A stretch of 9,426 nt of DNA from an uncultured Acidobacteriota bacterium (GTDB taxonomy: Bacteria; Acidobacteriota; Thermoanaerobaculia; Gp7-AA8): contig CAMPKJ010000192.1 of assembly GCA_946887105.1 (NCBI GenBank), positions 1-9,426 of the forward strand, read 5' to 3'. The notes beneath the pieces are model-generated. The model had not been told where the DNA came from, searched no databases, and saw only the letters and a program-made list of their open reading frames with translations. Made by a program: the position numbers and the translations under genes. Positions 655 through 4,262 of the stretch are shown here, piece after piece; within the stretch, counting starts at the first letter, position 1; every line of letters starts with the position of its first letter.

Positions 655-1742
655 TGCTGTACCACCTCCTGTATGGCCTCCGCGACGTCGTGGTCGGCTT
701 CAACGTGTTCCGGTACATCACGTTCCGGACCGCGTTCGCCGCGCTGACGGCGCTGCTCATCTCGTTCATCCTCGGCCCGTGGCTGATCGAGCGCATGCGC
801 CGCATCAAGCTCGGCCAGTACATCCGCGAGGAAGGTCCGAAATCGCATCAGGTGAAGGCCGGCACGCCGACCATGGGCGGGCTGCTCATCAACGTGGCCA
901 TCCTGATCCCGACCATCCTCTGGGCGGACATCACCAATCCGTACATCTGGATCATCCTCTTCGTCACCGCGGCGTATGCCGCGATCGGATTCATCGACGA
1001 CTATCGCAAGCTGGCCAAGAAGCAGAACCTCGGCCTGACGTCGAAAGAGAAGTTCACCTACCAGTTTGCCGTCGCGTTGCTGGCCGCGCTCGCGATTGCA
1101 TACCTGCCGATGCTCAAGAACAACTACTCGACCGCGATCACGTTCCCGTTCATCAAAGACGTGGTGTTGAATCTCGGGCTGCTGTACATCCCGTTCGTGA
1201 TGGTCGTGCTGGTGGGCTGCTCGAACGCGGTCAATCTCACGGACGGTCTGGACGGGCTGGCCATCGGCTCGACGCTGGTCGCGGCGGTCACCTACACCGT
1301 GCTCACGTACGCTGCCGGCCACGCGCGCATCGCCGACTACCTGCGCATCGCCTGGGTGCCGCAGACCGGAGAGCTGGCGGTGTTCTGCGGAGCGATGGTC
1401 GGAGCCTCGCTCGGCTTCCTCTGGTTCAACGCGCATCCGGCGGAGATCTTCATGGGCGACGTCGGTTCGCTGGCGCTGGGCGGCGCGATCGGCTGCCTGG
1501 CGGTGATGATCAAGCAGGAGATCCTGCTGGTGCTGGTGGGCGGGCTGTTCGTGCTCGAGGCGATGTCGGTGATCCTGCAGGTGGCGTCGTTCAAGATCAC
1601 CGGACGGCGCATCTTCAAGATGTCGCCGCTGCATCACCATTTCGAATTGTCCGGCTGGAAGGAAACGAAAGTGGTCGTGCGCTTCTGGATCATCGCGGTG
1701 ATGTTCGCGATGGTGGCGCTGGCGACGCTCAAATTGCGATGA
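654..1742 (+). CDS. mraY: Phospho-MurNAc-pentapeptide transferase MraY
   Basis: Integral membrane enzyme that transfers phospho-MurNAc-pentapeptide from UDP to undecaprenyl phosphate to form lipid I, the first membrane step of peptidoglycan synthesis. At 362 residues it has the usual family length (about 360). Motifs seen: AGTPTMGG (69-76), FIDDYRK (113-119) with the Asp pair D115/D116 that binds Mg and substrate, NLTDGLDGLA (194-203), FMGDVGSLALG (266-276) with D269, and PLHHHFE (325-331) with the His triplet. About ten hydrophobic segments are spread through the chain, from about 24-42 to 341-359. ATG 654 overlaps the murF TGA by one base (TGATG), and a GGAGG at 640-644, 9 nt upstream, serves as ribosome binding site. 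The 3' end overlaps murD by ATGA, so translation is probably coupled on both sides. Confidence 0.98.
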   Translation: MLYHLLYGLRDVVVGFNVFRYITFRTAFAALTALLISFILGPWLIERMRRIKLGQYIREEGPKSHQVKAGTPTMGGLLINVAILIPTILWADITNPYIWIILFVTAAYAAIGFIDDYRKLAKKQNLGLTSKEKFTYQFAVALLAALAIAYLPMLKNNYSTAITFPFIKDVVLNLGLLYIPFVMVVLVGCSNAVNLTDGLDGLAIGSTLVAAVTYTVLTYAAGHARIADYLRIAWVPQTGELAVFCGAMVGASLGFLWFNAHPAEIFMGDVGSLALGGAIGCLAVMIKQEILLVLVGGLFVLEAMSVILQVASFKITGRRIFKMSPLHHHFELSGWKETKVVVRFWIIAVMFAMVALATLKLR

Positions 1743-3052
1743 AGACGCTGGTGGTGGGTGCGGGGAAGTCGGGCGTCGCGTCGGCGAACTTTCTGGCCGC
1801 GCGCGGCGAGCGCGTGCTGCTGGCGGACTCCGCCAAGGAGCCGTCGCTGCCGGTCGCGCTCGACACGCGCGTCGAACGCGCATTCGGCCGCGAAGACGTC
1901 GCGCTGCTCGATGACGTGACCACCATCGTCGTCAGTCCCGGCGTGCCGCTCACGATTCCGCTCCTGCAGCAGGCGGCCACGCGCGCCATTCCGGTCATCG
2001 GCGAGATCGAGCTGGCTTATCGTTTTCTGCAGGGCACCGTCATCGCCGTCACCGGCTCGAACGGCAAGTCCACCACCACGGCGCTGATCGGCGAGATCCT
2101 GCGCGTGGCCGGACGGCAGCCGATCGTGGCCGGGAACATCGGCGAGCCGCTCATCTCCGCGCTCGATCCCGAGCGTCCGCGCACGTACGTGCTCGAGCTT
2201 TCGTCGTTCCAGCTCGAGACCGTCGAAACGTTCCACGCGCACGTCGCGCTGCTGCTGAACATCACGCCCGATCACATGGACCGCTATGCGAGCTTCGACG
2301 ACTACGCCGCGGCCAAGTACCGGATCTTCCGCCATCAGGGGTCCGGCGATACCGCGATCGTGAACGCCGCAACCGATCGCCGCGGAACGACGCGCGATTC
2401 GGGCGCGCGCGTCTGGCGCTTCTCGTCGACGGAACGCATCGAGGCAGGTGCGTTCGTCGATGGCGACGAACTGGTGATGAACGTCGGTGGCGAAGAGCGC
2501 CGCATCCCGCGTGCGTCGCTCCAGCTGCAGGGACAGGCGAACGCCGAAAATGCGCTTGCGGCGTGGCTGGCCGCACGCGCCATCGGGATCGACGACATGG
2601 ACGTGCAGATCGCGTTCGGCACGTTCGCCGGACTGCCGCATCGCATGGTGCTCGTGCGCGAGCTCGACGGCGTCGCCTGGATCAACGACTCGAAGGGGAC
2701 CAATGTCGACGCGACGCTGAAATCGCTCGAAGGTTTCACCGGCTCGAGCGTCATCCTGATCCTCGGCGGCAAGGACAAGGCGGGCGAGTTCGAGCGCATG
2801 CGCGAGCTCGTCGCGGCCAAAGCGCGCACGGTGCTGACCATCGGCAAAGCGGCGGATCGCATCGCCGAGGCGCTGCAGGGATCGAGCGAGATCGTGCCCG
2901 CCGAGACGATGGACAACGCGGTGCGCTGGGCGCGCGAACACGCGAGGCCAGGGGACACGGTCCTGCTCTCGCCCGCGTGCGCGAGCTTCGATCAGTACCG
3001 CAACTTCGAACATCGCGGCGAGCACTTCGAAGAGTTGGTGAGGGGGCTATGA
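1739..3052 (+). CDS. murD: UDP-MurNAc-L-Ala:D-Glu ligase MurD
   Basis: Cytoplasmic ATP-dependent ligase adding D-glutamate to UDP-MurNAc-L-alanine. The 437 residues match the family (about 440-450). Domain order: N-terminal Rossmann UDP-binding domain starting with VVGAGKSG (5-12); central ATPase domain with P-loop TGSNGKSTTT (105-114), GNIG (132-135), ELSSFQLE (153-160) and NITPDHMDR (174-182); C-terminal domain with LPHRM (299-303), INDSKGTN (315-322), LGGKDK (342-347) and SPACASFDQYRNFEHRG (411-427), which are diagnostic for MurD. ATG 1739 overlaps the mraY stop by 4 nt (ATGA) and has no clear Shine-Dalgarno, so coupling is likely. The frame extends upstream to 638, but that part is an out-of-frame reading of mraY. 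The start is tight: the first beta strand begins at residue 3. The TGA (3050-3052) lies in an ATGA shared with the small frame in the following repeat region. Confidence 0.97.
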   Translation: MKTLVVGAGKSGVASANFLAARGERVLLADSAKEPSLPVALDTRVERAFGREDVALLDDVTTIVVSPGVPLTIPLLQQAATRAIPVIGEIELAYRFLQGTVIAVTGSNGKSTTTALIGEILRVAGRQPIVAGNIGEPLISALDPERPRTYVLELSSFQLETVETFHAHVALLLNITPDHMDRYASFDDYAAAKYRIFRHQGSGDTAIVNAATDRRGTTRDSGARVWRFSSTERIEAGAFVDGDELVMNVGGEERRIPRASLQLQGQANAENALAAWLAARAIGIDDMDVQIAFGTFAGLPHRMVLVRELDGVAWINDSKGTNVDATLKSLEGFTGSSVILILGGKDKAGEFERMRELVAAKARTVLTIGKAADRIAEALQGSSEIVPAETMDNAVRWAREHARPGDTVLLSPACASFDQYRNFEHRGEHFEELVRGL

Positions 3053-3171
3053 GCGCGCGAGTTCCTCGGAGTTCCTCGGAGTTCCTCGGGTTCCTCGGCG
3101 GACCCGCGCGAACTTGTCACCCGAGGAACCCCGAGGAACTCCGAGGAACCCCGAGGAACTCGACGTCATGA
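3049..3171 (+). CDS. Possible 40-residue coupling ORF across the murD-ftsW repeat
   Basis: Not a recognised protein. This small frame begins at an ATG that overlaps the murD stop (ATGA 3049-3052) and ends at a TGA that overlaps the ftsW start (ATGA 3168-3171). GAGGGGG (3040-3046) just upstream makes a good ribosome binding site. The peptide is basic, rich in Ser, Arg, Pro and Gly, and is mostly the translation of the 9-bp repeat (EFLGFLGG in the left arm; PRNPEELRGTPRN in the right arm). It has no signal peptide, membrane segment or known motif. What is seen is the open frame and the overlap at both ends. The inference is that ribosomes leaving murD could read through the hairpin and deliver themselves to ftsW, so that passage of the ribosome may matter more than the peptide. 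It could equally be chance, as a 119-bp repeat-derived sequence can stay open by luck. Confidence 0.35.
   Translation: MSARVPRSSSEFLGFLGGPARTCHPRNPEELRGTPRNSTS
3058..3162. repeat. Inverted array of a 9-bp unit (GTTCCTCGG x4 / CCGAGGAAC x4) forming a long hairpin
   Basis: Left arm (3058-3098): four direct copies of GTTCCTCGG at 3061, 3071, 3081 and 3090, the first two followed by a spacer A. Right arm (3121-3162): four copies of the reverse complement CCGAGGAAC at 3121, 3131, 3141 and 3151, each followed by C or T. Paired by hand, 40 base pairs form with one A-C mismatch (3070/3150) and one bulged C (3130); the loop is 22 nt (3099-3120). There is no T-tract after the stem, so it is not a standard intrinsic terminator. 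It lies wholly between murD and ftsW inside a cluster where most other junctions overlap. It may be a REP/MITE-like or minisatellite-type palindromic element; I do not recognise a named family. Confidence 0.93.
3153..3157 (+). promoter_or_regulatory. Shine-Dalgarno of ftsW inside the last repeat unit
   Basis: GAGGA in the fourth right-arm repeat unit sits 10 nt before the ftsW ATG at 3168 and is the only good ribosome binding site there. It decides the ftsW start in favour of ATG 3168. Because the unit pairs with 3061-3069, this site would be buried in the hairpin when the RNA is folded. Each of the other three right-arm units carries the same GAGGA, so the repeat unit itself supplies the motif. 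Confidence 0.6.
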
Positions 3172-4262
3172 GCCGCAAGCTCACCTACGACACCTGGCTC
3201 TTCTCCACCGCCATGCTCATCCTGGTGGTCGGGCTGGTGATGATCTACAGCGCGTCGGCGATGATCGCCACGCAGCGATTCGGACATGGTCCTTATTACT
3301 TCCTCGTGCGGCAGCTGGTGTTCCTCGTCGTCGGCGCGGGCGCGATGTTGTTCCTCATGCACGTCAATCCGGCGGTGCTGCAGAACCGGCGCGTGGTGTA
3401 CGGCGCGCTGGCCGTCGTCGCGCTCGGATTGATCGCGGCGCTGTTCCAGTCGCCGATCAACGGCACCCATCGCTGGATCCAGTTGCCGTGGTTCCAGCTG
3501 CAGCCGTCGGAGTTCGCGAAGCCGGCCATCATCCTCTTCATCGCCGCGTTTCTGGCCAAGCGCGACGAGCGGATCAACGACCTCACCGCCACGCTGCTGC
3601 CGCTCGGATTCATCCTGACGCTCGTGGCCGGACTGGTGCTGCTCGGCCGCGATTTCGGGACGGCCATGACGCTCGTGCTCGTGGCCGCGGGCATGATCTA
3701 CGTCGGCGGTGTGAGCTGGCGTTACGTCGCGCTCATCGCCGCGGCGTTCGTGCCGCTGGCCGGCTACTTCGCGGTCAGCGCGGCGTACCGGCGCGAGCGG
3801 CTGTTGTCGTTCCTGAATCCCGAGGCCGATCCGCTGGGAAAGGGATTTCACGCCATGCAGTCGCTGATCGCCATCGGCACCGGCGGATTCGAGGGACTGG
3901 GCATCGGCAACGGACGGCAGAAGCTGTTCTTCCTTCCCGAGCCGCACACCGACTTCATCTTCGCGATCATTTGCGAAGAGCTCGGATTCGTCGGAGCGCT
4001 GCTGTTGATCGCCGCGCTGGCGCTGCTGGTGTGGCGCGGATTGCGGATCGCGCAGTACAGCCAGGATCGTTTCGCGTTTTACGCGGCCATCGGCTGCACG
4101 CTGATGATCGCCATCCAGGCGCTGATCAACGTCAGCGTCGTGCTGTGCCTTCTTCCGACGAAGGGACTGCCGCTGCCGCTCGTGAGTTACGGAGGCTCTT
4201 CGCTCATCGCGAGCCTCATGGCCATCGGACTGCTGCTGAATTTTTCTCAACAATCAGGCTGA
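3168..4262 (+). CDS. ftsW: Septal peptidoglycan glycosyltransferase FtsW (SEDS family)
   Basis: Multi-pass membrane glycosyltransferase of the SEDS family that polymerises lipid II during septation, working with a class B penicillin-binding protein. 364 residues, about ten hydrophobic segments. Motifs: YSAS (27-30), NGTHRWIQL (98-106), LQPSEFAK (111-118), RDFGTA (161-166), the HTDFIFAIICEELG stretch (260-273) whose Asp (D262) corresponds to the catalytic Asp of SEDS enzymes, and the C-terminal TKGLPLPLVSYGGSS (331-345). FtsW rather than RodA is favoured by the position between murD and murG. ATG 3168 is chosen because FtsW proteins start with a short cytoplasmic tail before helix 1 and GAGGA precedes it. 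A TTG at 3114 extends the frame only through repeat sequence and has no ribosome binding site. Odd points: the residue before DFGT is Arg where most SEDS proteins have Pro, and the gene is separated from murD by the repeat hairpin. Confidence 0.96.
   Translation: MSRKLTYDTWLFSTAMLILVVGLVMIYSASAMIATQRFGHGPYYFLVRQLVFLVVGAGAMLFLMHVNPAVLQNRRVVYGALAVVALGLIAALFQSPINGTHRWIQLPWFQLQPSEFAKPAIILFIAAFLAKRDERINDLTATLLPLGFILTLVAGLVLLGRDFGTAMTLVLVAAGMIYVGGVSWRYVALIAAAFVPLAGYFAVSAAYRRERLLSFLNPEADPLGKGFHAMQSLIAIGTGGFEGLGIGNGRQKLFFLPEPHTDFIFAIICEELGFVGALLLIAALALLVWRGLRIAQYSQDRFAFYAAIGCTLMIAIQALINVSVVLCLLPTKGLPLPLVSYGGSSLIASLMAIGLLLNFSQQSG

Follow-up and report, generated by a model that had tools for sequence, protein, structure and literature searches.

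A palindromic array of short words at the murD-ftsW junction of an acidobacterium may be tolerated as a translated coupling relay

In the DNA of a soil acidobacterium analysed here (the window, 9,426 nt), the junction between murD and ftsW, both essential cell-wall genes, is occupied by a 105-base palindrome of tandem short words, and a 40-codon frame, which the initial annotation had not mentioned and which is the part that relatives retain, runs through the whole hairpin. We propose, with a probability of roughly 0.6, that the repeat insertion has been tolerated at this position because it would be translated as a coupling relay, in a manner resembling that of mycobacterial interspersed repetitive units (MIRUs) but with palindromic word arrays as the inserted material. 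The array would have entered a junction at which murD and ftsW overlap by 4 nt (ATGA), as they do in uninserted relatives; the junction in the window now contains ATGA twice. The former ftsW start would now open the relay ORF, whose stop forms a new 4-nt overlap with the start of ftsW. Ribosomes that finish murD would start again on the relay, open the hairpin as they translate it and then re-initiate on ftsW, and it is because the relay ORF would hand ribosomes from murD to ftsW that the array could persist between them. Here we document the element, the wider kind of repeat to which it belongs, the different words found at this junction and the retention of the reading phase; from these sequence comparisons we infer that the relay is translated and that coupling is what selection keeps. 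The features of the junction are as follows.

1739..3052, + strand: murD, with its stop TGA at 3050-3052 (Pfam MurD-like_N, Mur_ligase_M and Mur_ligase_C; end of the ORF)
3049..3052, + strand: ATGA, 4-nt overlap of the murD stop and the start of the relay ORF
3049..3171, + strand: relay ORF, 40 codons plus stop (MSARVPRSSSEFLGFLGGPARTCHPRNPEELRGTPRNSTS), spanning the entire hairpin; translation predicted
3058..3162, between murD and ftsW: whole hairpin, 105 bases
3058..3098, + strand: 5' arm, four GTTCCTCGG words at spacings of 10, 10 and 9
3061-3069, 3071-3079, 3081-3089 and 3090-3098, + strand: the four forward GTTCCTCGG copies
3099..3120, strand not assigned: loop of 22 nt separating the arrays
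3121..3162, + strand: 3' arm, four CCGAGGAAC words at a spacing of 10
3121-3129, 3131-3139, 3141-3149 and 3151-3159, + strand: the four inverted CCGAGGAAC copies
3153..3156, + strand: GAGG in the last word, possibly a weak Shine-Dalgarno sequence for ftsW
3168..3171, + strand: ATGA, 4-nt overlap of the relay stop (3169-3171) and the ftsW start (3168-3170)
3168..4262, + strand: ftsW, the downstream gene (Pfam FTSW_RODA_SPOVE, E 4.5e-105)

These coordinates agree with the initial annotation, which had described four copies, a 22-nt loop and four inverted copies, and RNA folding recovered the near-perfect stem with one mismatch and one bulge that it had read from the letters. The longest ungapped arms, 3058-3090 and 3130-3162, are 97% complementary. 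Folding of positions 3040-3180, which the annotation had suggested, gave a strong stem of -100.1 kcal/mol as against -56.6 +/- 4.1 for shuffled sequences (z -10.5), and none of the 200 shuffles folded as stably. A search of positions 2950-3300 against Rfam returned nine matches, five of them to miRNA hairpins and none reaching its gathering score. The putative ribosome-binding GAGG lies within the stem, 11 nt 5' of the ftsW ATG, and the 5' end of ftsW (ATGAGCCGCAAG) is close to the ftsW 5' ends of relatives. Neither a Pfam match nor a homologue was obtained in searches with the relay ORF product. Within the dcw cluster of the window, Pfam identified mraY, murD, ftsW, murG, ftsQ, ftsA, ftsZ and two Mur ligases, which we read as murF and murC from the gene order. 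The neighbouring junctions are as tight as the annotation had stated, with overlaps of 1 nt between murF and mraY and of 4 nt between mraY and murD.

The murD-ftsW junctions of relatives, which the annotation had suggested aligning, were read across the near clade (n = 19: the window, L126 = G016, L001-L007 and L196-L205). Six of the 19 genomes have no insert and their ftsW start overlaps the murD stop by 4 nt, among them L001, L003, L004 and L007, in which the ftsW start lies within this overlap. In L006, the murD frame itself continues across a CCCGACA array and ends in a 4-nt overlap. The other 12 genomes, including the window, have inserts of 28-184 nt separating the two genes. Judged by folding and by eye, nine of these inserts are inverted arrays; L002 and L197 carry short unpaired arrays and L198 no array, and a strong hairpin is absent from the inserts of L002 and L198. 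The words, also compared by eye, are GTTCCTCGG in the window, CAGAAAG in L196, CAGACCG in L200 and ACGGGTA in L197, with related GTGCC words in L201 and L202, related GGTTGC words in L005, L126, L199 and L203, and one heptamer, in rotation, shared by L002 and L006. In L201 (G010), the entire element is tandemly duplicated in frame, and its relay consists of two similar halves. The earlier suggestion of a recent origin holds insofar as the two nearest relatives have no insert at this position (L001) or one with another word (L196).

A tree of concatenated MraY, MurD, FtsW and MurG sequences interleaves inserted and uninserted genomes: the window pairs with G018 (support 0.61), and the insert-free L001 joins these two (support 1.00), some deeper nodes being poorly supported. 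Among five pairs of sister genomes with inserts, four have clearly different words and one (L201/L202) has related words. Repeated insertion or repeated replacement of the word would explain both the interleaving and these differences. At the murD-ftsW junction, spacings of at least 60 nt occur in 9 of 19 genomes vs 8 of 69 cases at four other tight junctions chosen for pooling (murF-mraY, mraY-murD, ftsW-murG and murC-ftsQ; p 0.001), the pool leaving out murG-murC (0/17), ftsQ-ftsA (0/16) and ftsA-ftsZ (6/14, where a spacing of ~50 nt is usual).

Ten of the 12 inserts contain a relay ORF of 11-63 codons that begins at the murD stop or close to it and overlaps the ftsW start by 4 or 8 nt. Eight of the relays begin and end with a 4-nt overlap (L002, 11 codons; L005, 34; window, 40; L196, 41; L198, 14; L200, 36; L201, 63; L203, 46). 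The G016 relay has an 8-nt overlap with ftsW, and that of L202 begins at a GTG located 7 nt past the murD stop and overlaps ftsW by 4 nt; in L197 and L199 the frame is cut short by early stops and there is no relay. When 1 or 2 nt were removed in silico from the middle of each insert, the relay remained in 1 of 12 and 2 of 12 cases, respectively, so that relays are found in 10/12 natural vs 3/24 shifted inserts (Fisher p 6e-5, with the inserts treated as independent). The idea of a relay was derived from the window, L002, L005 and L006; among the nine inserts examined later, the relay is present in 7/9 vs 2/18 shifted versions (p 0.001, again treating inserts as independent). Should all 12 inserts go back to a single insertion event, they would not be independent, and these p values are in that respect optimistic. 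Openness of the frame alone is in slight excess, with nine open frames among the 12 vs 5.7 expected from dinucleotide shuffles (for L202 this comparison used a different start, and it was scored as a miss). Eight of the nine open frames end exactly in a 4-nt overlap, the expectation being one in three (p 0.001). By eye, the relay peptides of different species look unrelated.

Work on translational coupling has reported that the commonest gene overlaps are 4, 1 and 8 nt and that a spacing of ~20 nt almost abolishes re-initiation, although some of the studies cited in the same source describe re-initiation across long spacers (PMC10666635). Given that ~20 nt is nearly sufficient to abolish re-initiation, a hairpin of about 105-115 nt should uncouple ftsW from murD; a relay with overlaps at both ends would be likely to avoid this uncoupling and to melt the stem, the same reasoning as is given for MIRUs (PMC12548453).

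Elsewhere in G016 the relay signal is weak. Across 813 kb of this genome, relays were found at 5 of the 27 array-bearing junctions in which a start codon overlaps the upstream stop vs 3 of 54 for shifted versions (p 0.08). All words of these five strict relays are stop-free, and a relay is absent from all ten junctions whose words are of the AGTNCTG, AATTGA or AATGTT type; the sites open to an array may therefore be restricted by the stop codons that its word contains. Among seven relays found under looser rules in G016, one word (AGCGGGT...) contains TAG. At other junctions of the near clade, in a survey that left out murG-murC and ftsA-ftsZ, mraY-murD gaps of at least 78 nt occur in four genomes, of which L007, L197 and L200 have no relay and G016 has a 30-codon frame ending 2 nt before the murD start. 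One of the three long ftsW-murG gaps contains a relay (G016, 41 codons, 8-nt overlap) and those of L003 and L200 contain none; at the murF-mraY junction of G016, a 55-codon frame ends in a 1-nt overlap. Two of these gaps have repeats of their own: the 205-nt mraY-murD gap of L007 holds two tandem CAGAGAT-like hairpins, its frame from the overlapping start stopping after eight codons, and the 132-nt ftsW-murG gap of L003 holds another palindrome-like repeat, TGTCATCCTGAGG...CTCAGAATGACA. At the murD-ftsW junctions of distant Acidobacteriota, an exact relay was found in none of the 14 genomes with a start at the required position, 25 more lacking such a start. Of 57 other dcw junctions of distant genomes, counted irrespective of array status, 6 have a frame ending in a 4-nt overlap (four at ftsA-ftsZ, one at ftsW-murG and one at murG-murC).

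As a repeat, the hairpin belongs to the paired inverted short-word arrays, which are widespread though little studied and occupy intergenic DNA in many Acidobacteriota, with words differing by lineage. In 813 kb of G016, all 105 pairs of similar neighbouring arrays (partners at most 250 nt apart) are inverted and none is direct. A scan of 400 kb of the same genome with a limit of 700 nt gave 58 inverted pairs, one of which consists of the facing arms of two adjacent hairpins, and one direct pair, many arrays being partnerless under these thresholds. Other G016 words in the same form include AGTNCTG, GGTTGCGC, GATCGCA, CAGACCG, AGCGGGT and AATTGAA. With the 700-nt limit, 69 Acidobacteriota loci yielded 21 inverted and no direct pairs and 11 loci of other phyla yielded none, the loci being grouped by record title and one of the 69 being titled only 'bacterium'. 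A further 400 kb from 16 genomes contained eight inverted and no direct pairs. The mean density outside G016 is thus ~2 pairs per 100 kb vs ~13 in G016, with G005 reaching four pairs in 40 kb. Of the 105 G016 elements, 66 are located at co-directional, 22 at divergent and 8 at convergent junctions, with four more inside genes and five at edges; the background comprises 423 co-directional, 90 divergent and 92 convergent junctions, and gene positions come from a simple gene caller. The median distance of an element is 5 nt to a stop codon and 30 nt to a start codon. The hairpin in the window has the form of the arrays described from Xanthomonas (see below), with a spacer flanked by tandem short words in inverted orientation, and the many intergenic copies per genome that characterize that type are present in the relative G016.

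The seven FtsW loci closest to that of the window are 67-78% identical and come from MAG records titled Acidobacteriota, Acidobacteria or Thermoanaerobaculia; the FtsW of a further genome, G018, is 77% identical. The exact doubled word, GTTCCTCGGNGTTCCTCGG, was found in only one of 148 genomes of the class, G016, with 49 matches (none for the reversed control), and in one of 396 genomes of a phylum sample, again G016, the two sets overlapping. The annotation had raised the possibility of a dispersed palindromic repeat and advised searching relatives for clusters of the word; this search revealed many copies in G016, where the same word occurs in at least 15 places and the general kind in 105 places per 813 kb, so that the idea gains support. 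We extracted 14 stretches of G016, 13 around sites of the word plus the dcw region, which lacks it and whose murD-ftsW insert is 93 nt of another word. The 13 stretches comprise 16 clusters, of which 13 are two-armed, with arms head to head around a spacer; L114 has two single-arm clusters of the same polarity ~410 nt apart, and L121 has one cluster with CCGAGGAAC copies only. Units within the clusters are spaced by 7, 8, 9 or 10 nt. Plasmids and phages gave no match to the word pattern. A match in a viral contig was taken as chance, since the double word stands alone within a long ORF and has no inverted arm.

Comparison of 40 loops uncovered one clearly homologous pair (score 42; control maximum 24, next best 25), and because the loops are otherwise unrelated, whole hairpins are apparently seldom copied; copy-and-paste of entire hairpins thus seems rare. 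The arms of one element often differ in period in the G016 clusters. When the 3' arms of all elements with a given word were ranked as partners, an element's own arm was placed slightly better than those of other elements in two of five word families and not in the other three (mean rank fraction, with 0.5 meaning no preference: AGTNCTG 0.39, 25 elements; AATTGA 0.33, 7; CAGACC 0.5, 6; GTTCCTCG 0.66, 11; GGTTNCG 0.67, 6). Selection for pairing, which the annotation had offered as one reason for the identical copies, is therefore not clearly supported for single elements. No excess of flanking direct repeats over the control, as target-site duplication would produce, was seen around 68 G016 elements; at murD-ftsW, where the murD stop overlaps a start in 11 of the inserted genomes, TGAG flanks the insert on either side in 7 of these 11. 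As a guess, replication slippage within an arm combined with template switching between arms could give rise to the form. A bolder and, in our estimation, rather doubtful idea is that the arrays make up a self-propagating repeat class of Acidobacteriota, in which the unit would be the form itself, a lineage-varying word of 7-10 nt in tandem, head to head around a spacer, put in place by a dedicated activity; coupled junctions would then keep only relay-readable forms, and the same site would be refilled repeatedly with different words that preserve the coupling.

Mobilization of a REP/REPIN-type element by a RAYT transposase is the least credible of the alternatives and was dropped after tests of gene adjacency and genome counts. 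G016 does encode 14 Y1_Tnp matches, but array pairs lie near only three of them, at ~0.5, 0.9 and 1.2 kb and none closer, in surroundings of about 2 kb or less on each side, and G024 and G025, with 18 and 17 such matches, have no array pair in 20 kb each. One of the G016 Y1_Tnp matches has a REP-like palindrome, CCCCGGGCTGAAGCCCGGGG (L156:2539-2672), at a distance of ~170 nt, which is separate from the word arrays. Almost as improbable is termination or attenuation of transcription at the murD-ftsW junction: the stem is strong and G+C-rich, but no T run follows it (the sequence after 3162 is ACGTCATGAG), the position is within an essential operon, and G016 arrays are rarer per junction between convergent (8/92) than between divergent genes (22/90).

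Three further explanations deserve more weight, although all seem unlikely. The hairpin could be a structural insulator of the kind of the ribosome termination structures reported from many bacteria (PMC7518266), placed behind the murD stop and lowering or separating the translation of ftsW. It begins 5 nt 3' of that stop and, in G016, 57 of the 82 stop-facing array edges are within 10 nt of a stop codon. Against this explanation, which we regard as the strongest of the three, the ORF that stays in phase across the insert in 10 of 12 genomes would take ribosomes through the structure, and the inserts of L002 and L198 contain a relay without a strong hairpin. REP-like stems act elsewhere as mRNA stabilizers or decay barriers, and a very stable stem inside an operon could likewise protect or process the transcript and set the mRNA levels of murD and ftsW. 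None of the analyses run here favours such a role, however, and 22 of the 96 placed G016 elements are located at divergent junctions, a position that leaves them no 3' end to protect; we give this explanation a small chance. An equally small chance is left to a purely neutral repeat, the relay phase of which would reflect coincidence or shared descent: the relay signal is weak across G016 as a whole, the inserts possibly have a common origin and openness is near the shuffle expectation, yet the inserts range from 28 to 184 nt and mostly carry different words in sister genomes, and still eight of nine open frames end in the 4-nt overlap (p 0.001). We favour the proposed coupling relay.

If the relay reading is correct, FtsW synthesis would depend on ribosomes arriving from MurD. 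The murD-ftsW junction offers a natural experiment on translational coupling, with inserts of 28-184 nt between otherwise overlapping genes in several lineages, most of which keep a frame that connects both genes through short overlaps. Short relay ORFs may escape gene finders that apply a length cut-off. The sources cited here describe inverted short-word arrays in a small number of bacteria, with neither origin nor role settled, and the acidobacterial arrays add to these reports strict head-to-head pairing and turnover of the word at one site.

The array form is known from Xanthomonas and Nostoc and the relay from MIRUs; to judge from the matches listed in the open-licence literature, which contain no description of arrays and relay together or of either in Acidobacteriota, the combination has apparently not been described before. 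In Xanthomonas, paired arrays of the heptamer GGGAATC, convergent and close together, are reported to number 70 in one genome and 75 in another (PMC4692102); other heptamer repeats are also known (PMC4679880). In Xanthomonas, one G-rich word is involved and a quadruplex interpretation is given, whereas a single acidobacterial genome has many words, mostly of 7-10 nt, and one junction has a relay reading frame. The P6b stem of the Nostoc tRNA-Leu intron is likewise built of heptanucleotide repeats, with the word replaced at the same site and length changes on one or both sides (PMC4476775); the likeness lies in a short-repeat stem whose word turns over at one site, and the difference is that the stem belongs to an intron there and to an intercistronic, apparently translated insert here. 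Dispersed extragenic palindromes are shared with REP/REPIN systems, but the unit here is a tandem word array and no close association with RAYT genes is seen in G016. Rickettsia palindromic elements often preserve the reading frame on insertion (PMC10969869); they fuse into proteins and have a conserved peptide, in contrast to the separate relay ORF, with no conserved peptide seen, of the acidobacterial inserts. MIRUs are short repeats that have inserted at a start codon and contain an ORF coupled at -4 nt to the gene that follows (PMC12548453), and the insert in the window, which also sits at a start codon and has an internal ORF with a 4-nt overlap (3168-3171; coupling predicted), resembles them in organization, a likeness drawn from their described layout rather than their sequence and implying no membership. 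What sets it apart from MIRUs is that it is a palindrome of tandem short words, that the word varies between most sister species, that the encoded peptides look unrelated and that the host is an acidobacterium.
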